NCBI GenBank assembly: GCA_024280655.1
Contig: JAJRPR010000102.1
Location: forward strand, 1-34,095
DNA: 34,095 bases
Origin: Alphaproteobacteria bacterium
GTDB taxonomy: Bacteria > Pseudomonadota > Alphaproteobacteria > Rhizobiales > Devosiaceae
Direction of reading: 5' to 3'
Position 1 is the stretch's first letter. Every line of letters starts with the position of its first letter. The notes under the pieces were generated by a model that searched no databases, had not been told where the DNA came from, and saw nothing but the letters and a program-made list of their open reading frames with translations. Below, piece by piece: positions 3,306 through 34,095 of this stretch. Position numbers and translations under genes: made by a program.

Positions 3306-3941
3306 ATGAGCGAAACACAACAAAATAATTTCCTGCCAAATGAAATATTGATCAATGCACCAGATGGTGTTGTGCCATTTATTTTGGCGGATATGGCAGA
3401 GCAGCGCATAAAGAATGCACCAAATGATAGGGTTGCCTTAAGTTTTATCACACGAGATGGCGAGCGCTTATTGCGTATGAATGATATTTTACGCACTCTT
3501 ATGCCAAATCATCAAATCATTATGCTACCAGCTTGGGATTGTTTGCCCTATGATAGGGTGTCGCCAAATATGGTTTCTATTGCTGCCAGAATGAGCGCAC
3601 TTTCTATTTTAGCAAGTGAGGCAACAAAGGGCGCTATTGTTTTAAGCACCGCAAATGCTCTCATTCAAAAACTACCACCAAAAGCAATAGTAAAATCAAT
3701 GTCATTTATGGCAAAGGCTGGTGAAATAATAGATAGCGAAGACATTATTAAATGGGCAAATATGAACGGCTATTTGCGTGTGCCAACGGTGCGTGAAAGC
3801 GGTGAATATGCAGTTCGTGGTGGTATAATTGATTTATTCCCAGCAGGGCAAAAACAACCCATTAGATTTGATTTTTTGGATCAGTTCTTGAAACAATTAG
3901 GAATTTTAACCCCGAAACTCAGCGCACAAATAATAATCTAA
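3306..3941 (+). pseudogene. mfd: Mfd (transcription-repair coupling factor), N-terminal fragment upstream of frameshift
   Basis: The product matches the Mfd N-terminus (LPAWDCLPYDRVSPN, VRESGEYAVRGGIIDLFPAGQKQPIRFDF). It leaves frame at the T6 run 3872-3877. Confidence 0.9.
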
Positions 3942-3961
3942 CTTCTATATCTTTAGCGCCA

Positions 3962-6793
3962 ATGAGCGAGATTGCATTAAGCGAAGATAGCATAAGAAGA
4001 TTTAGGCAAAATTTTAGCGTTAATTTCAACCAAACTAGAATGGCTGACCCGCTCTATAATGCGATTAGTGCCTCGCAAAGATTTATGGGTATGGAGCATT
4101 GGTTGCCGTTTTTCTATGAGAATTTAGATAGGTTAGTTGATTATTGTGGTGATGCGCCATTTATTTTTGATGATCAAACAATGCTGGCATATAATGAACG
4201 TCAAGCACAAATAATTGATTATTATGAAGCAAGAAGCAAAACACTAAATGCAGCAATCGCTAGTGAAACTATTCCCTATAACGCCATCAAGCCTGAACTG
4301 CTCTATGAGATAGATACAAAAAAACAACAGATATTTGGCAATAATAAATTAATTCAGATTTCTCCATTTGCAAGCCCTGATAGTTTAATAGTAAAAAAAG
4401 ATATGGGAGCGGCTATTGCGCCTTCCTTTGCAGCGCAACGAGCAAAGGAAAATAGCAATATTTTCAATTCGCTAATCGAGTTAATTGACAAAGAGATTGG
4501 AAATAAGCGCAAAATCATTCTCAGCTGCTGGAGCGAAGGTTCTCGTGAAAGAATGGCGCAAGTTCTAGCTGATCATGGTCTAAAAAATATCAATATGGCT
4601 GCTAATTATCATCAGGCAAAGAGTGCAAAGATTGGTGTGGTTTCTTTGCTCGTGCTGGGGCTTGAAACTGGTTTTAAAAGTAAAGAATTATTAGTTTTAT
4701 CTGAGCAAGATATTCTTGGTGAGCGTTTAATTAGATCACGCAAAAAGCGCAAAAGTAGCGATGCCCTAACTGAAGCTAGTGCCTTATCGCCCAATGATCT
4801 CGTAGTGCATATAGATCATGGTATAGGGCGTTTTATTGGTCTTAAGGCCATAAATGTGACTGGTGCGCCGCATGATTGCGTTGAAATTGAATATGCTAAA
4901 AATGATAGGCTTTATTTGCCTGTTGAAAATATTGAATTGCTTTCTCGATATGGATCAGAGCAAGCAGGGGCAACATTAGATAGGCTTGGCACTGGTGCTT
5001 GGCAGGCGAAAAAAGCCAAACTTAAAAAGCGTATAAAAGACATGGCAGAGCAGCTAATAAGAATAGCTGCCAAACGTGAGATGAGTTCCGCTTCTCCCAT
5101 ATCAATGCACGCTGGGGCTTATGATGAATTTGTCGCTAGGTTTTTATTTGATGAAACTGAGGATCAATTAGTAGCAATTGATAATGTTTTAGATGATCTA
5201 ACTTCTGGCAAGGTGATGGATCGCTTGGTGTGTGGTGATGTTGGTTTTGGAAAGACTGAAATTGCCTTGCGTGGCTCATTTGCTATGGCTTTATCGGGCA
5301 GGCAAGTGGCGCTAGTTGTGCCAACCACTTTGTTGGCTCGCCAGCATTATAAAACTTTTAGCGATCGTTTTGCAGGATTGCCAATAAATATCGCCCAGCT
5401 TTCAAGATTAGTTCCAAGCGCACAATTAAAAACTAATAAAAAGGGTTTGGCAGATGGCTCGATTGATATTGTGATTGGCACACATGCGCTTTTAGCCAAA
5501 ACAATAGAATTTCGTGATTTAGGCATGTTGATTATTGATGAGGAACAACATTTTGGCGTTGGACATAAAGAAAGACTAAAAGAGCTGAAAAGCAATGTGC
5601 ATGTGCTAACGCTTAGCGCAACGCCAATCCCACGCACTTTACAATTAGCGCTAACGGGTGTGCGTGATCTATCTTTATTGGCAACGCCACCAGTTGATAG
5701 ATTGGCTATTAGAACCTTCGTTATGCCATTTGATGCATTGAGCGTAAGGGAAGCATTGTTGCGTGAAAAATATCGAGGCGGGCAGAGTTTTTATGTTGTG
5801 CCACGTATTAAAGATCAGGGGAAAATATCACGCTTTTTAAGCGAGCAAGTGCCTGAAGTTAAATTTATGGTGGCTAATGGGCAAATGAATGCCAATGAAC
5901 TTGATGATATTATGAATGCTTTTTATGATGGCAAGTTTGATGTGCTAGTTTCAACCTCCATTGTAGAATCAGGTTTAGATATTCCAAGTGCTAATACTTT
6001 AATTGTACATCGAGCAGATCAGTTTGGTCTTGCGCAACTCTACCAAATACGAGGGCGAATTGGGCGCTCAAAGGTTCGAGCCTATGCTCTATTCACCGTA
6101 CCAGTAGATAAAAAATTAACTGATAATGCGCAAAAGCGGCTTGAAGTATTACAATCGCTTGAACATTTAGGGGCAGGCTTTGAATTGGCGAGCCATGACC
6201 TTGATATTCGTGGTGCTGGTAATTTGCTTGGTGATGAGCAATCGGGGCACATTAGAGAAGTTGGTTTTGAGCTTTATCAAGCAATGTTAGAAGATGCGGT
6301 GGCGGCATTGCGCTCAGGGCAGATTGATGAAAATGAAGAGAATGAGTGGTCGCCGCAAATTTCGCTTTCAATGCCCGTTATGATACCAGAGAATTATGTC
6401 AAAGATTTACCTGTAAGAATGCAGCTTTATCGGCGACTTGGTGATTTAAGCACTGCTGAGGAAATTGATGATTTTGCTGCTGAATTAATAGATAGGTTTG
6501 GCTCTTTGCCAGAAGAGGTGAGGGCGCTATTAAAAATCGTGCTAGTAAAGTCCTTGTGCCGCCAAGCAAATGTTGAAAAAATAGATGCAGGGCCAAAGGG
6601 AGCAATTTTAACGCTTAGAAATAATGAATTCCCAAATCCAACAGCATTAGTTAAGTTAATATCCGATCCAACGCAATTAGTGCGCTTAAGGCCAGATCAA
6701 AAGCTGGTATTTTCTCGAGATTGGCCAAAAGCTGAAGATAGATTAGTAGGAGTTGCATCTATCCTTGCCAAAATGGTAAAAATGACGCAATAA
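3962..6793 (+). CDS. mfd: Mfd, C-terminal part (RNAP-interacting region, translocase, C-terminal domain) downstream of frameshift
   Basis: 943 aa with DLVVHIDHGIGRFIGL, CGDVGFGKTEIALRG, DEEQHFGV, TLSATPIPRTL, QIRGRIGRS. The frame extends upstream to about 3872 as FFGSVLETIRNFNPETQRTNNNLTSISLAP, continuing the upstream ORF. Confidence 0.95.
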   Translation: MSEIALSEDSIRRFRQNFSVNFNQTRMADPLYNAISASQRFMGMEHWLPFFYENLDRLVDYCGDAPFIFDDQTMLAYNERQAQIIDYYEARSKTLNAAIASETIPYNAIKPELLYEIDTKKQQIFGNNKLIQISPFASPDSLIVKKDMGAAIAPSFAAQRAKENSNIFNSLIELIDKEIGNKRKIILSCWSEGSRERMAQVLADHGLKNINMAANYHQAKSAKIGVVSLLVLGLETGFKSKELLVLSEQDILGERLIRSRKKRKSSDALTEASALSPNDLVVHIDHGIGRFIGLKAINVTGAPHDCVEIEYAKNDRLYLPVENIELLSRYGSEQAGATLDRLGTGAWQAKKAKLKKRIKDMAEQLIRIAAKREMSSASPISMHAGAYDEFVARFLFDETEDQLVAIDNVLDDLTSGKVMDRLVCGDVGFGKTEIALRGSFAMALSGRQVALVVPTTLLARQHYKTFSDRFAGLPINIAQLSRLVPSAQLKTNKKGLADGSIDIVIGTHALLAKTIEFRDLGMLIIDEEQHFGVGHKERLKELKSNVHVLTLSATPIPRTLQLALTGVRDLSLLATPPVDRLAIRTFVMPFDALSVREALLREKYRGGQSFYVVPRIKDQGKISRFLSEQVPEVKFMVANGQMNANELDDIMNAFYDGKFDVLVSTSIVESGLDIPSANTLIVHRADQFGLAQLYQIRGRIGRSKVRAYALFTVPVDKKLTDNAQKRLEVLQSLEHLGAGFELASHDLDIRGAGNLLGDEQSGHIREVGFELYQAMLEDAVAALRSGQIDENEENEWSPQISLSMPVMIPENYVKDLPVRMQLYRRLGDLSTAEEIDDFAAELIDRFGSLPEEVRALLKIVLVKSLCRQANVEKIDAGPKGAILTLRNNEFPNPTALVKLISDPTQLVRLRPDQKLVFSRDWPKAEDRLVGVASILAKMVKMTQ

Positions 6794-7668: not shown

Positions 7669-8874
7669 ATGTTTTCACGTGAGAAAAAAACACTCATTGC
7701 CGAATGGTGGTGGACGATAGATAGAACACTCTTAGCAGCACTTATTATGCTATTGCTAGTTGGTGTGGTATTGTCTTTTGCTGCTAGCCCGCCAGTTGCC
7801 GTTCGTCTTGGTTATTCGCCATATCATTTTGTGATACGTCATATTGTTTTCATTGTGCCAACTATTATTGTTCTTATTGGTGCATCATTGTTAAATGAGC
7901 GCTTGGCTAGATTTGCTGCATTATTAATGTTTGTTGGTTCCTTAATTCTACTTTGGGCAACGCCATTCATTGGGTTTGAAGCGAATGGTGCTAGAAGGTG
8001 GATATTGATATTTGGTCAATCAATTCAGCCATCAGAATTTATTAAGCCAAGTTACGCACTTATGGCGGCATGGCTGTTTTCTTTATCGATGCAACAAAAG
8101 GAAGTTCCAGGAAAAATAATTTCTTTCATTTTTATGGGTTTGATAATTATCCCGCTTTTAATGCAACCAGATTTAGGGCAATCATTTTTAGTTGGTGCAA
8201 CATTTTTTTCTCTATTATTTCTTGCTGGTCTATCATGGTTTTGGATTTTTTTGCTCTTTGGGGTTAGTGCTGTTTCGGGCTTTGGCGCATATTTGTTCTT
8301 CCCTCATTTTGCAAGGCGCATAGATGGATTTATAAATCAGGGAAGTAGCGGCCCTTCCTATCAAGTAGAAAAAGCGTTGCAATCATTGCTTGAAGGTGGG
8401 TGGTTTGGTCGTGGGCCGGGTGAGGCTACTGCTAAGAACTATATTCCAGATGCTCATGCAGATTATGTTTTTTCAGCAGCCGCGGGTGAGTTTGGAATTA
8501 TATTTTCTTTAATGCTGGCTTCTTTAATTGGCTTTATTATTATTAGATCATTGAGCAATGCGCAAAATCAAACAGGGTTGTTTGCACGACTTGGAGCTAG
8601 CATTTTAGCTATTCAATTTGGATTGCAATCAATTATAAATTTGGCAGTAAATCTAAATCTCATGCCCTCAAAAGGCATGACTTTGCCATTCGTTTCTTAT
8701 GGAGGAACTTCAATGTTAGCGATTGCTTTTTCAATGGGAATATTGCTGAGCTTAACAAGAAAAAAACCGCATGAAAGACTGCTATCGGTATTACCTCTTT
8801 ATCAAAAGGGAAATAATAAAACAGCGACAGGACTAATGGCGGCAAGAATAAAAGAGCAACCTAGCGAGATATAA
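7669..8874 (+). CDS. ftsW: Peptidoglycan glycosyltransferase / division protein FtsW
   Basis: SEDS family; GARRWI, QPSEFIKP, HADYVFSAAAGEFG, LPFVSYGGTSML. Confidence 0.96.
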   Translation: MFSREKKTLIAEWWWTIDRTLLAALIMLLLVGVVLSFAASPPVAVRLGYSPYHFVIRHIVFIVPTIIVLIGASLLNERLARFAALLMFVGSLILLWATPFIGFEANGARRWILIFGQSIQPSEFIKPSYALMAAWLFSLSMQQKEVPGKIISFIFMGLIIIPLLMQPDLGQSFLVGATFFSLLFLAGLSWFWIFLLFGVSAVSGFGAYLFFPHFARRIDGFINQGSSGPSYQVEKALQSLLEGGWFGRGPGEATAKNYIPDAHADYVFSAAAGEFGIIFSLMLASLIGFIIIRSLSNAQNQTGLFARLGASILAIQFGLQSIINLAVNLNLMPSKGMTLPFVSYGGTSMLAIAFSMGILLSLTRKKPHERLLSVLPLYQKGNNKTATGLMAARIKEQPSEI

Positions 8875-9090
8875 AATGGAAAAAGAAAAATGGCCCACCT
8901 ACGCCAAGGCTTCGGAGGACAGGCGGGGAAGGGCAGCCTGCGTGGCGTGAACGCAAGAAAGAATGTAGCGACCAATGGCGACAAGAATAAAGAAAGCAAC
9001 CTAGCAAGATATAAAATGAAAAAGAAAAACGGCGGGGATGTCGGGGTCGGGAGCGTAGCGACCAACGGCGACAAGAGAAAAAGAGCATGA
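8832..9090. repeat. Degenerate tandem repeat region spanning the ftsW 3' end to the murG start
   Basis: 8835-8893 (aatggcggcaagaataaaagagcaacctagcgagatataaaatggaaaaagaaaaatgg) recurs at 8974-9032 (aatggcgacaagaataaagaaagcaacctagcaagatataaaatgaaaaagaaaaacgg). A partial third copy, gtagcgaccaacggcgacaagagaaaaagagc, runs into the murG start. Confidence 0.85.
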
Positions 9091-10184
9091 GCAAAATTGT
9101 TTTAATGGCTGGTGGAACTGGTGGGCATTTATTTCCTGCAATGGCGCTGGCGCAAGAATTAGAGAGACGTGGGCACGAAATTCATTTGATGAGTGATGAG
9201 CGTGTATCAGCCTATGGTGAAAAATTTCCAGCAAAACAAACTCACATTGTACCATCAGCAACACCATCATTAGCAAATCCGATAAAATTCATTAGAGCTG
9301 GTTTTATTATTTTAGGTGGGACTTTTACTGCTTGGCAAAAGCTGAGGGAAATAAAACCAGATATTGTAATTGGTTTTGGTGGATATCCGATTTTCCCGTC
9401 ATTTTTTGCTGCATCGCTAATGGGAATAAAAGGAATTTTACACGAGCAAAATGCAGTTCTTGGTAGGGCTAATAGGGCATTAGCAAGATTTGCAAAAGTG
9501 ATGGCGCTTAGTTTTGAATATACCGCTTATGCAGAGAGGTATGGGATTATGCAAATTGTAACTGGTAATCCTGTTAGAGATAGGGTGCGAACAGCCGCAA
9601 GGGAATTGGCTTATTCTAGGATAAGCGAAAAAGGTAAGATACGTCTATTGGTGTTTGGGGGATCGCAAGGGGCGAGGGTATTTTCAGATTTAATACCACC
9701 AGCCATTATTCAACTTCCTGAGCATTTAAGAAAGCGCTTAGAAATTACGCAACAATGTCGCCCTGAAGATCTTGAGCGAGTTACTTCTATCTATAAAAGC
9801 GCTAAAGTAAATGTTGAACTATCCGAGTTTTTTGACGATTTGCCTGAGAGAATGGCTGATTCGCATTTGGTTATTTCTAGGTCGGGAGCATCGTCAGTTT
9901 CTGAATTAACAGTACTAGGCCGCCCCGCAATTTTAATTCCATTACCCGGATCACTTGATGGCGATCAGGCTAATAATGCTGCCTTTATCGAATCAGTTGG
10001 TGGCGGTTGGGTTGTTGAACAGAACAATATTTCACCGCAATCTCTTGCCAAACAGCTTGAAGAGTTGTTTTTAGAGCCAGAGCTGTTAAATGATGCTGCA
10101 AATAAGTCAAAATCGCTAGGGCAGCCAAAGGCAGTTGAGCGATTGGCTGATTTAGCAGAGAATATTATTAAAACTAAAAAATAG
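9087..10184 (+). CDS. murG: UDP-N-acetylglucosamine--N-acetylmuramyl-(pentapeptide) pyrophosphoryl-undecaprenol GlcNAc transferase MurG
   Basis: MAGGTGGHLFPAMALAQEL, LHEQNAVLGRANR, FGGSQGARVFSD, SRSGASSVSEL. Confidence 0.97.
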   Translation: MSKIVLMAGGTGGHLFPAMALAQELERRGHEIHLMSDERVSAYGEKFPAKQTHIVPSATPSLANPIKFIRAGFIILGGTFTAWQKLREIKPDIVIGFGGYPIFPSFFAASLMGIKGILHEQNAVLGRANRALARFAKVMALSFEYTAYAERYGIMQIVTGNPVRDRVRTAARELAYSRISEKGKIRLLVFGGSQGARVFSDLIPPAIIQLPEHLRKRLEITQQCRPEDLERVTSIYKSAKVNVELSEFFDDLPERMADSHLVISRSGASSVSELTVLGRPAILIPLPGSLDGDQANNAAFIESVGGGWVVEQNNISPQSLAKQLEELFLEPELLNDAANKSKSLGQPKAVERLADLAENIIKTKK

Positions 10185-20496: not shown

Positions 20497-26283
<5,787 letters not shown>

Positions 26284-26400
26284 CCTTTTATTAACTCGCT
26301 ATGCGTTGAGCGCATGGCAGTTTCTCGTTTGTGTGGCTACCTAATAAAAAAATTACCCCTATATTAGCTTTAATGCAAATTAATCAAAAGGAGCAAAGTG

Positions 26401-26529
26401 ATGAATAAGCAAAATAATATATTCAAAAACGTTTTTAACGCAATGATTGAAGGTCGCACTCGTAGCGCCGAGCGTGAAATTGCTCAATATCGTACAATGA
26501 TACGTACTAAACCTTCTGATGTTGTTTAG
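26401..26529 (+). CDS. Small hypothetical protein (42 aa, Arg-rich C-terminal half)
   Basis: MNKQNNIFKNVFNAMIEGRTRSAEREIAQYRTMIRTKPSDVV. Strong Shine-Dalgarno AAAGGAG at 26387-26393, 7 nt before the ATG. Too short for the supplied ORF track. Confidence 0.6.
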   Translation: MNKQNNIFKNVFNAMIEGRTRSAEREIAQYRTMIRTKPSDVV

Positions 26530-27385
26530 AAAGAATAAGAATTGCCCATTCATTTTTGATTAGGCGTTCCTCTAGGGTAAAACCAGCACTAAAATAGACA
26601 GCGATTACTTCCTCTGCCTGTTCTTCCAAAATACCTGATAGAATGATTTTAGCATCAGGTGTCGCAATTTTGCTCATTTGTGGGGCAAGTTCAATAAGCG
26701 GTTGTGCCAAAATATTTGCGACAATTAAATCATAAGGCGCATCATTATTGATTGTATAATGATCTAGCCCTGTCGCTTCAAAACAATAAATATTTTCTTC
26801 AATTTTATTTATCTTAGCATTCTCTTGCGCAATTTTAACTGCAAGCGGATCTATATCACTGGCAAAAACAAAATTCCCAGTGACCTTAGCCAAAGCGATT
26901 GCTAAAACTCCTGTTCCAGTCCCTACATCAAGAATGTTTTGTGGGATTGATTGTTCAAGCACAATTTTAATCGCCTCTAAACAACCCGTAGTTGTTTCGT
27001 GATGCCCAGTGCCAAAAGCCTGCGCCGCATCTATTTTTATCGATATAAGATTATCATCAATTTCATCAACATTATGCGAGCCATAAATATAAAACCCACC
27101 AGCACTAACTGGTTTTAATCCCTCAAGCGACTTTGCAACATAATCAATATCAGTATCAATAGGTTCAATAGAAAAATCCACCTTGCCATCAAGTACTTCA
27201 CTTACTAGTTGGTTAAACTGTTCAATATCAGGCTTTTGCTCGCACGTTGCTTCAAATATCCAAATATTGTTTTCTTTTTCATATGCTGAAGCAGTGATTG
27301 CTAAATCTTCACGCTCACTCACGGCATCAACAAGCGCAAATGCTTGTTGCTTTGTTAGATGTTTAGAAGTTGAAACCTGATCCAT
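26507..27385 (-). CDS. prmA: Ribosomal protein L11 methyltransferase PrmA
   Basis: AFGTGHHETTTGCLEAI, LDVGTGTGVLAIALAKV, DLIVANILAQPLIELAP. Confidence 0.95.
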   Translation of the reverse strand: MDQVSTSKHLTKQQAFALVDAVSEREDLAITASAYEKENNIWIFEATCEQKPDIEQFNQLVSEVLDGKVDFSIEPIDTDIDYVAKSLEGLKPVSAGGFYIYGSHNVDEIDDNLISIKIDAAQAFGTGHHETTTGCLEAIKIVLEQSIPQNILDVGTGTGVLAIALAKVTGNFVFASDIDPLAVKIAQENAKINKIEENIYCFEATGLDHYTINNDAPYDLIVANILAQPLIELAPQMSKIATPDAKIILSGILEEQAEEVIAVYFSAGFTLEERLIKNEWAILILSKQHQKV

Positions 27386-27508
27386 TAAAATACCTTGAGC
27401 TTTAGTCTATTTAGTCTCTATCATAAAGCATAGTCTAGCTAAAGGAAAATTGATTTGATTATAGGTTAAGTTAGCTAGAATAGTGATTCTTTGAATAGGA
27501 AATTGTAA

Positions 27509-28441
27509 ATGAGCGAAAACACTTTGAGCGATAATATTAGCAACAAGCTAGCACGTATTGAACTATTAGATATTGTTCGAGGCTTAGCAATAATTGGTGT
27601 GGTGATTTATCACTTTATGTTTGATTTACGCTTGTTGGAATTTATCAATTTAGATGTAACTGTAGATCCCGCTTGGGTTTTCTTTGCTCGCACATTAGCT
27701 GGAACATTTTTGGCGCTCGTTGGCTTTGGTTTAGTTTTTTCTCACCATAATGGCATGCGTTGGAAAAGCTTTTGGAAACGGTTTGTAATAATATGCATTG
27801 CAGCGATTGCCATTAGCGTTGCAACATTTTTTGTCTTTCCAAATATGTTTGTATATTTTGGAATTTTGCACGCTATTGCAATTTTTTCTATTATAGCCTT
27901 GCCATTTTTGCGTGCGCCAATTTGGGTAATAGTTGCAACAATGATATTTATACTATCATTGCCGTTCTTTTTTAGTTCAGCCATTTTTAATGAAAAGCTT
28001 TTTTCAATTATTGGCCTTTGGCAAGCGCCACCATATACTGCTGATTTGGTGCCATTTTTCCCCACATTTGGTTTTACATTGCTCGGTGTGCTAATCGCTA
28101 GGCTAGTTATAAAATTCAATATTGTAACTCGTTTAGCAGCTATTACGCCAAACGGTGGGTTTTTTAATATGCTAAAAAAGGCGGGGCAGTGGAGCTTGAT
28201 TATCTATCTTGTGCATCAACCAATAATGTTGGCAATTCTCTATCCTATAGCGAGTTTTGTTAAACCCGGTGAACTTTCGCAACCCCAAGCATTTTATGGT
28301 GCATGTTTTAGTAATTGTTTACAAACAAACGGCAGCACAGTTAATTGCGTATCTTATTGTCAATGCTCGCTTGAAAAAGTTGAGGAGGGCGATCTATGGG
28401 AAACTATTAATTCACCCATATTAACGAATGAGCAAAATTAA
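27509..28441 (+). CDS. DUF1624 / heparan-alpha-glucosaminide N-acetyltransferase-like membrane protein
   Basis: ARIELLDIVRGLAIIGVVIYHFMFDLRLL...FARTLAGTFLALVGFGLVFSH...YFGILHAIAIFSI...SLIIYLVHQPIMLAILY; Cys-rich C-terminal tail. Confidence 0.85.
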   Translation: MSENTLSDNISNKLARIELLDIVRGLAIIGVVIYHFMFDLRLLEFINLDVTVDPAWVFFARTLAGTFLALVGFGLVFSHHNGMRWKSFWKRFVIICIAAIAISVATFFVFPNMFVYFGILHAIAIFSIIALPFLRAPIWVIVATMIFILSLPFFFSSAIFNEKLFSIIGLWQAPPYTADLVPFFPTFGFTLLGVLIARLVIKFNIVTRLAAITPNGGFFNMLKKAGQWSLIIYLVHQPIMLAILYPIASFVKPGELSQPQAFYGACFSNCLQTNGSTVNCVSYCQCSLEKVEEGDLWETINSPILTNEQN

Positions 28442-28486
28442 ACAATAATGTCAATTTCTAATCTGTGCTCAGTAATGAACAAATAA

Positions 28487-28966
28487 TTATCTTGAGGCGC
28501 TAACTCGATACCAATCTTCACTTTGGCATATAAGCCCTAAATAAGCGCAGCCAGTTAGGCGCAACTGATTATAATTGATTAACTCTAGCTTGCCAGAATA
28601 GGTTTTGCCATCTTCAGGATTATAGATTTTACCAGAAAAAACGGTTGGAGCTTCTTGTTTATCAAGCATAAGAATTTGCAAGCCCAACAAGCGACGTGAG
28701 CGCAAATCTGGATCTTTATTGAAATAGTCAGGTGCATTTTGAATGCCAACCTTATCAATTTCTTGTTTGTTTTTTTCATATAGTTCAGGGCGGATAGAAA
28801 CTTTAGTAATGTAGCCACAAAGCCCTTCTTGACATGCTTTTATTGTTAAGTGGGACTTTACATCTGTTAGCCAAACGCCGGCAAACGGATTGCTTTGCGC
28901 AAAAGCTTGGGAACTTATAAGTAAAAGCATAAAAAAGCCAATAATTGATTTTAGAAAAAATCTCAT
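28487..28966 (-). CDS. DUF2147 family exported protein
   Basis: Signal peptide; GVWLTDVKSHLTIKACQEGLCGYI, GKIYNPEDGKTYSGKLELINYNQLRLTGCAYLGLICQSEDWYRV. Confidence 0.85.
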   Translation of the reverse strand: MRFFLKSIIGFFMLLLISSQAFAQSNPFAGVWLTDVKSHLTIKACQEGLCGYITKVSIRPELYEKNKQEIDKVGIQNAPDYFNKDPDLRSRRLLGLQILMLDKQEAPTVFSGKIYNPEDGKTYSGKLELINYNQLRLTGCAYLGLICQSEDWYRVSASR

Positions 28967-29056
28967 TTTAAGCTATTCCTACTTTCTATTTTGTTCATGC
29001 CTATATTATTATATGTCACTTAATTAGGGCTTAATAAATATCATCTTTCATATATT

Positions 29057-30904
29057 TTAATCTGAAATTTTTACAAAACTATCCAAAACCTTTTTACGAC
29101 CCGCACTATCAAAATCAATCGCTAGTTTTTTCCCCTCAACATTGCTGATTGTTCCTTGCCCAAATTTTAGATGCGTAACTCGCATTCCTTTTCTAAAAGC
29201 AGAATTATTGCCCTCAGGAACTTCTTCAAAATTTGCATTAATGGTTTTAGGTGAATTTGCCCGCATACGCTTCCAATTAGGTGCATCATAAATATCATCT
29301 AGCGGGTCGTGTTTATTATATTTACTCGCTTGTTTGAAATTATTTTGTGAATAATTGTCGCCACTACTAGATAATTCAATATTGCTCACAATTACTGAAT
29401 TTTTTGGCAATTCATCTAAAAACCGAGAGGGCAGGGCGCTTTGAGTAAGTCCATGAATACGGCGATTTTGCGCTAGAGAAATAAAGCTACGTTTTTTAGC
29501 ACGAGTAATGCCGACATAGGCAAGTCGACGCTCTTCTTCTAAGCCAGCATTACCATTTTCATCAAGAGACCTTTGCGAGGGGAAAAGCCCTTCTTCCCAA
29601 CCAGCTAGAAACACATTGTTAAATTCAAGCCCTTTGGCAGCATGAAGCGTCATAATAGAAACGGCATCTTTGCTTTCACCACTAGAGCGCTCTAAAACCA
29701 AAGCGATATGTTCTAAAAAATCACCTAAAGCGTCAAATTCTTGCATAAAATTAACTAGCTCTTTAAGGTTCTCAAGCCTTCCGGGAGCATCAGCTGATTT
29801 TTCTTGTTTCCACATGGCAGTATAGCCACTCTCATCTAATATTTCTTCAGCCAATTCAAAGGGAGAAGTATTTGCAGAGCGTTTATTCCAATCGTCAAAT
29901 TGCGCAACTAAAAACCCTAAAGTCTCACGTTGCTTTTTCCCTAATTCTTCAGTTTCAATTAATAGCCGAATAGCTTGTAACATTGGGATATGTTGTGAGC
30001 GAGCAACTCTAATTATCATCTGTATTGTTGCGCTACCCAAACCACGTTTTGGCACATTGATAATGCGTTCAAGCGCCAGATCATAAGATTGCTGATAAGT
30101 AATGCGCAAATATGCTAAAGCATCACGAATTTCTCGCCTTTCGTAAAATTTAGCGCCCCCAATCACTCGATAATTTATGCCACGCTTAATGAAAATCTCT
30201 TCAAATTCACGCATTTGTGCCGAAGTGCGCACTAATATTGCTATTTCATTTAATTGTTCATTTTCCTCTCGTTGCAACTGCTCGATTTGCCCTGCAACAT
30301 GACGTGCCTCATCTTCACTGCCCCAAAATGGGCTAACGCAAACTTTTTCACCATCCTCACCACTCGCACTAAACAGAGTTTTGTCTAAGCGCCCCTCATT
30401 ATTGGCAATTACACTAGCGGCACAATTAAGAATGTGCCCAGTAGAGCGATAATTCATTTCCAATTTTATAGTTTTTGCACCGGGGAAATCTTTTTCAAAC
30501 CGTAAAATATTATCAATTTCAGCGCCTCGCCAACCATAAATTGATTGATCATCATCACCAACAACACAAATATTTGCCTCACTGGCTGGCTTGCCTTGCG
30601 CTAACAAGCGTAGCCAGAGATATTGCGCCACATTACTATCTTGATATTCATCGACCAAAATATATTTGAAGCGCTTATGATAGATAGATAAAATATCAGG
30701 ATTTTCACGAAATAACTTAATGCATAATAATAATATATCACCAAAATCAGCGGCGTTTAGATCTATTAGGCGTTGCTGATAGTCCTTATATAATTTATCT
30801 CCCAAACCATTGGCAAACATAGAGCTTGTTGATGAGCCTATATCTTTAGGCAATAGACCTTTATTCTTCCAGCCATCAATAATCGCAGCGAATTGACGTG
30901 CTGG
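29057..30904 (-). pseudogene. uvrD: UvrD/PcrA-type DNA helicase II, C-terminal part downstream of in-frame TAG (first Met of listed ORF at 30853)
   Basis: VDEYQDSNVAQYLWLRLLA, GDDDQSIYGWRGAEIDN, NYRSTGHIL, MTLHAAKGLEFNNVFL, EERRLAYVGITRAK. Same reading frame as the upstream fragment. Confidence 0.92.
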
Positions 30905-31366
30905 CTAGCGTTTTTGATCTATATTTTCAGCCTCTAATAATTGCTTTATTAGCCTAATTTGATCGTCTGTGTCTAAAATTGTGAAGTCAGACCTCAGATC
31001 AACAAGTTCAGCATGGCGACGTAAAATTCTTGCGCCAATCGAATGGAACGTACCAAGCCATGCCATGCCCTCAGTGCTAGAGCCGATAAGCGAAGCAACT
31101 CGTTGTTTCATTTCAAGCGCGGCTTTATTGGTGAATGTAACCGAAAGAATTTCGCTACTACGTGCTAAGTTTGAAGCTAGAATATGCGCAATTCTAGTAG
31201 TTAGAACCCGAGTTTTACCAGTTCCAGCTCCAGCTAAAACTAACAGCGGCCCCTCAATAGTAGTTACCGCTTCATTTTGCTGCTCGTTTAAGCCTTCCAA
31301 ATATTTAGGGTTTTTTTGCCTAAATTGCGCTGTAATTGGGTTGTTTGAAATTTCTGTATCTGTCAT
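30905..31366 (-). pseudogene. uvrD: UvrD/PcrA-type DNA helicase II, N-terminal fragment ending at in-frame TAG
   Basis: LNEQQNEAVTTIEGPLLVLAGAGTGKTRVLTTRI, SVTFTNKAALEMKQRV, GTFHSIGARILRRH. Terminates ENIDQKR-TAG-PARQFAAIIDGWKNKGL. Confidence 0.92.
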
Positions 31367-31474
31367 TTGAATATTGTTGCGAATCTCTCTTTGTTCTCTT
31401 TAATATATATGCGATGCAACAATATGTACATCTATCAATTTTGCAGTTTGCTATGAAGTTTTGTGAGTTTCTTT

Positions 31475-31633
31475 TGTCACCTTGAGCGTAGTCGAAAGGT
31501 CTAAGATGCTCGACTCTTTATGCGCTCACGCCGCACAGGCTGCTCAGCATGACAGCACCTATGTTATACTGGGTGACACATAAATGTTCAGGGCACACGC
31601 AAATGTCATACTGAGCAAAGCGAAGTATCTTAA
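31475..31633. repeat. Extragenic palindromic repeat cluster (TGTCAnnnTGAGC-type)
   Basis: TGTCACCTTGAGC 31475-31487, inverted GCTCAGCATGACA 31542-31554, direct TGTCATACTGAGC 31604-31616, with AGTCGAAAGGTCTAAGATGCTCGACT and AAAGCGAAGTATCTTAAG flanks. Confidence 0.8.
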
Positions 31634-31641
31634 GCTTTTAC

Positions 31642-33282
31642 TTACAAATGCTCTTCTTTGCTTTGCTCAACCAATGCTTTATTATAGTTCGACAGGGCAT
31701 CAACATGATAGAGCCAGCCGATTGGCGTTCTCTCGCGTCCCTCAAGCACAATTAAGCATGATTTCCCTGAACTTTCAAAAGCCTTTAGTGCAGTTTCAAG
31801 ATTATCACCAGCACGTAACCATGCTTTTGAGGTCATAATATCAAATTCAGGAATTTCATCACCCTCCTTAAATCTAGCCATAATATCTCGCACCCTAATC
31901 TGCTTGGCGAAATATTGATGCGGGCCTTCTTCAAGCATAATGCCACGAGTAAAAAGCTGCCAATAAAAGAAACTTCTACCCATTGCTAATTGGCTTAGGC
32001 CTGTTGAAATTGAAACGGCAATTAGCAAGGCAATAGACAATGCAAACCCTCCCGTAAGTTCAAAAATCATCACAACAGTTGAAATTGGTGCGCCAAGTAC
32101 TGCAGCGGCTACTGCACCCATGCCAATAATTGCATAGAGCGAACTTGATGAAACGGCATCAGGAAAAACTGCCAATGCCATAATGCCAAATGCCCCACCA
32201 GTCATTGCACCTAAATATAGAGCAGGAGAAAACACACCGCCCCCCATGCGTGAGCTAATGGTGATAGCGGTGGCAATGGTTTTTGCAACGATTAAGGCTA
32301 ACATTAGACCAATAGAAAGTGAGCCAGCAATAGCGCTATCGGTTGCTTCATAGCCAACACCAAGAACTTGCGGGAATAATAAGGCTATTAGGCCTACTAA
32401 AAACCCGCCCAATACTGGGCGTAACATTATTGGCATTTTAAGATGTCTAGAAACCCAATCTGTGCCAATCAATGAAGATTGAAACAAAATGGCAACCAGT
32501 GCGCAAGTAACGCCAAGCAGAGCAAAGGCCGGAACTTCCCAATATGATATTAAAGTAAAATCAGGAACAATAAAAGCAGGGACATCGCCAAACCACATGC
32601 GAGAAATAACCGCAGCCACTACTGCTGCAATAACCAAAGGCACAAAGGCGCTCATTGCAAAATGTGCCAATATTACTTCATGCGCAAATAAAACCCCAGC
32701 AATGGGCGCATTAAAAGAAGCTGAAATAGCAGCGGCAACACCGCAAGCTAGCATGGTTTTACGAGCTGAGGGGGGGAGTTCAAAAAAGCGAAAAAGTGCT
32801 TTTGAAACAGCGGCGGCATAAAATACAACTGGGCCTTCACGTCCAGCACTGCCGCCAAACCCAAGCGTAATTGCTGAAATGAGCGTTCCAATAGTGGCGT
32901 TCTTTAGATTTAGATGTTTCGAGGAATGGGCACGAGCCTCAATAACGTCGGCAACACCGCCAGCTCGCCCTAACGGTCGCCAAAAATGTAAAATAGTTCC
33001 TACCAACAGACCGCCAAATGTCGGTGCTACAATAACAACCCACCAAGGCAATGTTGAAAGCGATAATAAAAACCGCTCAGAGCTTGTGCCAGCCCAAAAG
33101 ATTTGAAACATACCTATAAGCGTGCGAAACCCAATGCCGACTAATGCGCCAGATATTCCAGCAATCAGTGCTAGCAACCAAACTTTTGGTTGTTGCATCT
33201 TAAGAAAAATATCAACATGCGGTCGCACCCAGCGATAGATAACCATATTTATTTGGTGGATGCGACCATGCCTACGTGACAT
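31642..33282 (-). CDS. ClC-type chloride channel/transporter with C-terminal CBS-domain region
   Basis: GFGGSAGREGPVV selectivity motif, GVFSPALYLGAMTGGAFG, MGAVAAAVLGAPIS; cytoplasmic C-terminal tail consistent with a CBS region. Confidence 0.93.
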   Translation of the reverse strand: MSRRHGRIHQINMVIYRWVRPHVDIFLKMQQPKVWLLALIAGISGALVGIGFRTLIGMFQIFWAGTSSERFLLSLSTLPWWVVIVAPTFGGLLVGTILHFWRPLGRAGGVADVIEARAHSSKHLNLKNATIGTLISAITLGFGGSAGREGPVVFYAAAVSKALFRFFELPPSARKTMLACGVAAAISASFNAPIAGVLFAHEVILAHFAMSAFVPLVIAAVVAAVISRMWFGDVPAFIVPDFTLISYWEVPAFALLGVTCALVAILFQSSLIGTDWVSRHLKMPIMLRPVLGGFLVGLIALLFPQVLGVGYEATDSAIAGSLSIGLMLALIVAKTIATAITISSRMGGGVFSPALYLGAMTGGAFGIMALAVFPDAVSSSSLYAIIGMGAVAAAVLGAPISTVVMIFELTGGFALSIALLIAVSISTGLSQLAMGRSFFYWQLFTRGIMLEEGPHQYFAKQIRVRDIMARFKEGDEIPEFDIMTSKAWLRAGDNLETALKAFESSGKSCLIVLEGRERTPIGWLYHVDALSNYNKALVEQSKEEHL

Positions 33283-33321
33283 TTATAGGTTCTCCTAATA
33301 GACTTGTATTCAACCATGTTT

Positions 33322-33371
33322 AACCTATCTTAAGAATAGGTTTGACTTAGTGAAACTAATTGTCACAATTA
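33322..33371. promoter_or_regulatory. Two palindromes in the divergent clc / AsmA-family intergenic region
   Basis: AACCTAT-CTTAAGA-ATAGGTT (33322-33342) and perfect TAATTGT-C-ACAATTA (33357-33371), with TTGACT between them at 33342-33347. Confidence 0.45.
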
Positions 33372-33404
33372 TAAAGAGAAAATGAAACATCTAACAAGGC
33401 TTTT

Positions 33405-34095
33405 ATGTTAAATCGTATATATATAATTGTTGGAATGTTGGCAATTGTTTTGCTTGCAGGTGCATTTCTTGCGCCATTTATGGTCGATTGGAATAACTAT
33501 AAAGAGCGCATGGAATATATCGCACAAAAGGCGCTCGGCAATGAAGTAAAAATAAATGGCGATATGTCAATTTCATTATTGCCGCAACCACGACTTAGTT
33601 TTGAAGATGTTGTGGTTGGATCTGATGAGCAAATAACTATTAAAATAGCTCGTGTAAGTGCTAAGTTTTCATTGTTGGATTTTTTTCGAGATCGTTATTT
33701 TATTACAGATCTTTCCCTAGAATCTGTACAGTTTTTTTTGAAGATTGATAAAAATGGTAAATTAATAACGCCCTTTGTTTTAGCAAAATCAATCACTAAT
33801 ATTAATGCCAGTATTGCAGATGCTAATATTGAGAACGGCTCAATAGAGATTTACGATGCACGAGTTGATGAGGTTTTAGGTGCGCAAAATTTCGATGGAA
33901 ACCTGACGATTGCAGGTTTAGATGGGCCGTTTTCATTAGCTGGAATTGGTGAATATGAAGGAAAAACCTATGATTTACGGGTTAATAGTTCGCAAATTAA
34001 TTCGAAAAACAAGATGCAGTTAGGACTATTGCTTCGCCCACAAAATAACGGTTTCACTCTTAAAATGAACGGTGAATTAACAGCAAATCTAATGC
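33405..34095 (+). CDS. AsmA family protein (3' truncated by window edge)
   Basis: Open frame from ATG 33405 to the window end: MLNRIYIIVGMLAIVLLAGAFLAPFMVDWNNYKERMEYIAQKALGNEVKINGDMSISLLPQPRLSFEDVVVG, the classic AsmA N-terminus. Confidence 0.88.
   Translation, partial: MLNRIYIIVGMLAIVLLAGAFLAPFMVDWNNYKERMEYIAQKALGNEVKINGDMSISLLPQPRLSFEDVVVGSDEQITIKIARVSAKFSLLDFFRDRYFITDLSLESVQFFLKIDKNGKLITPFVLAKSITNINASIADANIENGSIEIYDARVDEVLGAQNFDGNLTIAGLDGPFSLAGIGEYEGKTYDLRVNSSQINSKNKMQLGLLLRPQNNGFTLKMNGELTANLM

Follow-up and report, generated by a model that had tools for sequence, protein, structure and literature searches.

The window analysed here is a 34,095-nucleotide stretch corresponding to contig C104 of a 2.0 Mb draft genome (G000; 227 contigs, estimated 92.8% complete). 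The mfd gene, which encodes the transcription-repair coupling factor, is interrupted in this window, and the locus raises the question of whether the organism carries a broken mfd or whether the break is confined to the deposited record.

Organisation of the interrupted mfd gene

The mfd gene spans positions 3306–6793 (3,488 bases) and ORF translation reads it as two frames. The relevant features are as follows.

3306–3941, forward strand: N-terminal fragment of Mfd, 211 aa, with the final ~20 aa out of frame and a truncated UvrB-interaction domain.
3872–3877, forward strand: T6 run at which the frame breaks; the nearest relative compared, G002, has T7 here and an uninterrupted frame.
3962–6793, forward strand: remainder of Mfd, 943 aa from an internal ATG, with Pfam matches to MFD_D3, RID (CarD-like), DEAD, helicase C and TRCF.

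The first ORF terminates with ...QPIRFDFLDQFLKQLGILTPKLSAQIII-stop, and the frame of the second contains no stop upstream as far as the T run. This arrangement bears out the sequence-only reading, which had proposed that mfd is split by the loss of one nucleotide in the T6 run. The Pfam domains expected of an Mfd protein (RID, SF2 helicase and TRCF) are present in the window gene. As in intact Mfd, the two fragments jointly carry the UvrB-interaction, D3, RID, DEAD/helicase C and TRCF regions, and they are collinear with the intact genes of the genus; they differ from Mfd in that the frame, as deposited, is broken once.

It had also been suggested that initiation at position 3962 would yield a translocase lacking the UvrB-homology region. 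The domain loss holds in part, because the Pfam match to the UvrB-interaction domain covers residues 137–201 in the window fragment versus 137–222 in G002, so that the break passes through this domain instead of dividing it off neatly. A separately produced, shortened translocase is unlikely: no Shine-Dalgarno-like sequence was identified upstream of 3962, and the ATG at this position is an internal methionine codon common to three of the four congeners.

Conservation and constraint of mfd in the genus

Comparison with close strains had been proposed as a check on the break, and it showed an uninterrupted mfd frame in all four congeners compared (G001, G002, G003 and G004). The stop-to-stop lengths of these single open frames are 1163, 1187, 1168 and 1171 aa in G002, G001, G003 and G004, respectively. 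The G002 gene (contig JAMONS010000136.1) is 92% identical to that in the window; the two differ by 264 substitutions and by a single indel, which is the missing T. The genes of G001, G003 and G004 are 68–69% identical to the window gene. The mfd break is thus a singleton among the four congeners compared. Within the ~21 kb common to the window and G002, this T is also the sole uncompensated frame-breaking indel inside a gene body; the other indels are compensated, are multiples of three, are intergenic or lie at gene ends.

The remainder of mfd was described in the sequence-only reading as free of decay, and our analysis agrees. Substitutions relative to G002 at codon positions 1, 2 and 3 number 43, 26 and 195, giving a ratio of 0.35, compared with a median of 0.38 in intact gene pairs. 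Relaxed constraint and further lesions were both looked for in mfd as signs of a pseudogene, and we found a single lesion and a normal ratio. Normal constraint on the gene means that the break either arose very recently or is not real. In the C-terminal part of Mfd, amino-acid changes private to one genome (three in G000 and two in G002, over 574 conserved sites) were too few to separate error from mutation.

Further lesions in the window and across the genome record

A second interrupted gene was identified in the window.

29057–31366, reverse strand: pcrA/uvrD helicase gene, split by a TAG into 153 aa and 598 aa.
30905–30907, reverse strand: the in-frame TAG, at codon 154 of pcrA/uvrD; tryptophan in the six relatives examined.

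This TAG is the same class of lesion as the mfd break. In a comparison of about 680 kb of G000 with 710 kb of G002, 14 of the 191 G002 open frames that had a counterpart appeared broken in G000 (about 7%), a count that is approximate because L147, L233 and L234 (about 86–91% identity) may be alignment artefacts. The reverse comparison flagged 7 of 188 frames, three of which mirror lesions already counted in the forward direction, leaving at most 4/188. The six single-base frame breaks in the set of 14 are all deletions in G000; indeed, all clear single-base indels in this genome are deletions, mostly in A/T runs. The broken genes include infB (L049, likewise an essential gene, with TAA at codon 134), pyrD and gor, as well as genes for a ypfJ-like peptidase, a dihydropyrimidinase and a sensor kinase. 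Clear stop-gains in G000 are nearly all GC-to-AT changes, compared with about 42% expected under uniform change, a lean that also fits natural mutation.

Essential genes are broken in the same record

We examined five long and strictly essential genes in G000, namely rpoB, dnaE, secA, rpoC and ileS. Three of these (secA, rpoC and ileS) are broken; rpoB and dnaE are intact. In secA (L244), codon 512 is TAA (GRGTDI*LGGN) versus CAA in G002. The gene is otherwise strongly constrained, with 20, 7 and 141 substitutions relative to G002 at the three codon positions. The rpoC gene (L240/L242) consists of two frames meeting at an A6 run, and ileS (L245/L246) of two frames meeting next to a short T run; for both, the exact base change was deduced from the two frames and not from G002 sequence. 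Searches of the genome returned no second intact copy of the broken essential genes. A living cell cannot do without secA, rpoC and ileS, and the record would therefore contain many false lesions of the type seen in mfd. Lesions equivalent to that in mfd are thus present across the record, in 14 of 191 orthologues and also in genes that cannot be lost.

Origin of the missing T

Based on these comparisons, the missing T in mfd very likely stems from faulty sequencing or assembly of a low-accuracy draft, and the organism would in that case have an intact mfd gene. A homopolymer-deletion error would drop one T, so that a true T7 run would be deposited as T6. The break has the form expected of such an error, being a single-base indel at a homopolymer (T6 versus T7 in G002) that is absent in close relatives. 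Since the cell needs secA, rpoC and ileS, lesions of the mfd kind in this record are probably mostly false, with that of mfd among them. The sequence-only reading had weighed homopolymer error, a very recent pseudogene, and slippage or phase-variable expression; the first of these is strongly favoured by the lesions in secA, rpoC and ileS, and the last is not supported, because the congeners are intact and the T6 run is short.

Frameshifts have been surveyed in 1106 prokaryotic genomes, in which unclustered frameshifts with BLASTp support are expected to be sequencing errors (PMC3711429). The mfd lesion resembles the singleton frameshifts attributed to error there in being an unconserved, single-base break, validated by protein similarity, in a constrained gene. 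It differs from them in that the essential-gene check in the window's own record independently supports error. The draft genome would accordingly carry frequent false stops and frame breaks of little biological weight, and read-level support is needed before this genome is used to claim that genes have been lost, split or recoded. For such cases, the state of long genes that are essential, elsewhere in the record, offers a quick and decisive check.

A true and very recent loss of function, in which replication slippage deleted one T from the run in the population sampled and left a cell without transcription-coupled repair, is unlikely. Both mfd and pcrA are dispensable in known bacteria, so each lesion alone could represent a true loss, and the fact that both genes are broken in one window is compatible with this. 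The genomes of the genus, at about 2.0–2.1 Mb, are below those of most of the family, which makes some gene loss plausible, and the GC-to-AT lean of the stop-gains points in the same direction. Against this, the same class of lesion affects secA, rpoC and ileS, mfd lacks relaxed constraint, and few such lesions were found in the nearest relative, G002.

Restoration of Mfd by recoding, through a –1 ribosomal shift on T_TTT_TTG (3872–3878) or through RNA polymerase slippage, would make the gene functional or phase-variable, and we regard it as highly improbable. The shift needed is indeed –1, and T_TTT_TTG lies in register for zero-frame tandem slippage, a homopolymer placement shared with dnaX-type recoding, whether by ribosomal –1 shift or by transcriptional slippage. 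Unlike dnaX-type sites, however, the window site lacks conservation, a long run and stimulators. The frame break is conserved in none of the four congeners, RNA structure downstream of the T run was no better than in shuffles (z-scores of –0.81 and –0.23), and no Shine-Dalgarno-like motif was identified upstream. The T6 run is below the length of roughly 9 nt at which bacteria generally show selection against transcriptional slippage (PMC1088944), and in E. coli A_AAA_AAG outperforms the U-type heptamers that were tested as a shift site (PMC5009743). Recoding would also leave the nonsense lesions elsewhere in the record unexplained. We give the least credence to the proposal that the lesions are real throughout, with a lineage that recently lost mfd and pcrA/uvrD together, bears a high nonsense and slippage load, and rescues its essential genes by frameshifting or readthrough.

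Additional features of the window and genome

The GC content of the window is 39.6%, and no tRNA or Rfam match was found within it. A search for a G002 counterpart contig of window positions 22158–34095 returned none; in other congeners, the genes of this region are divided between contigs, and their order may therefore be different. The FtsW-like and MurG-like genes are separated by a spacer (window 8780–9110) that contains degenerate repeats of 27–40 nt and has diverged from G002 with many indels. On another contig, a dispersed repeat (L040:6042–6190) has dozens of matches in G002, including three on its mfd-bearing contig. The genomes of G000–G004, at about 2.0–2.1 Mb versus about 2.2–4.6 Mb in other members of the family, possibly reflect genome reduction.
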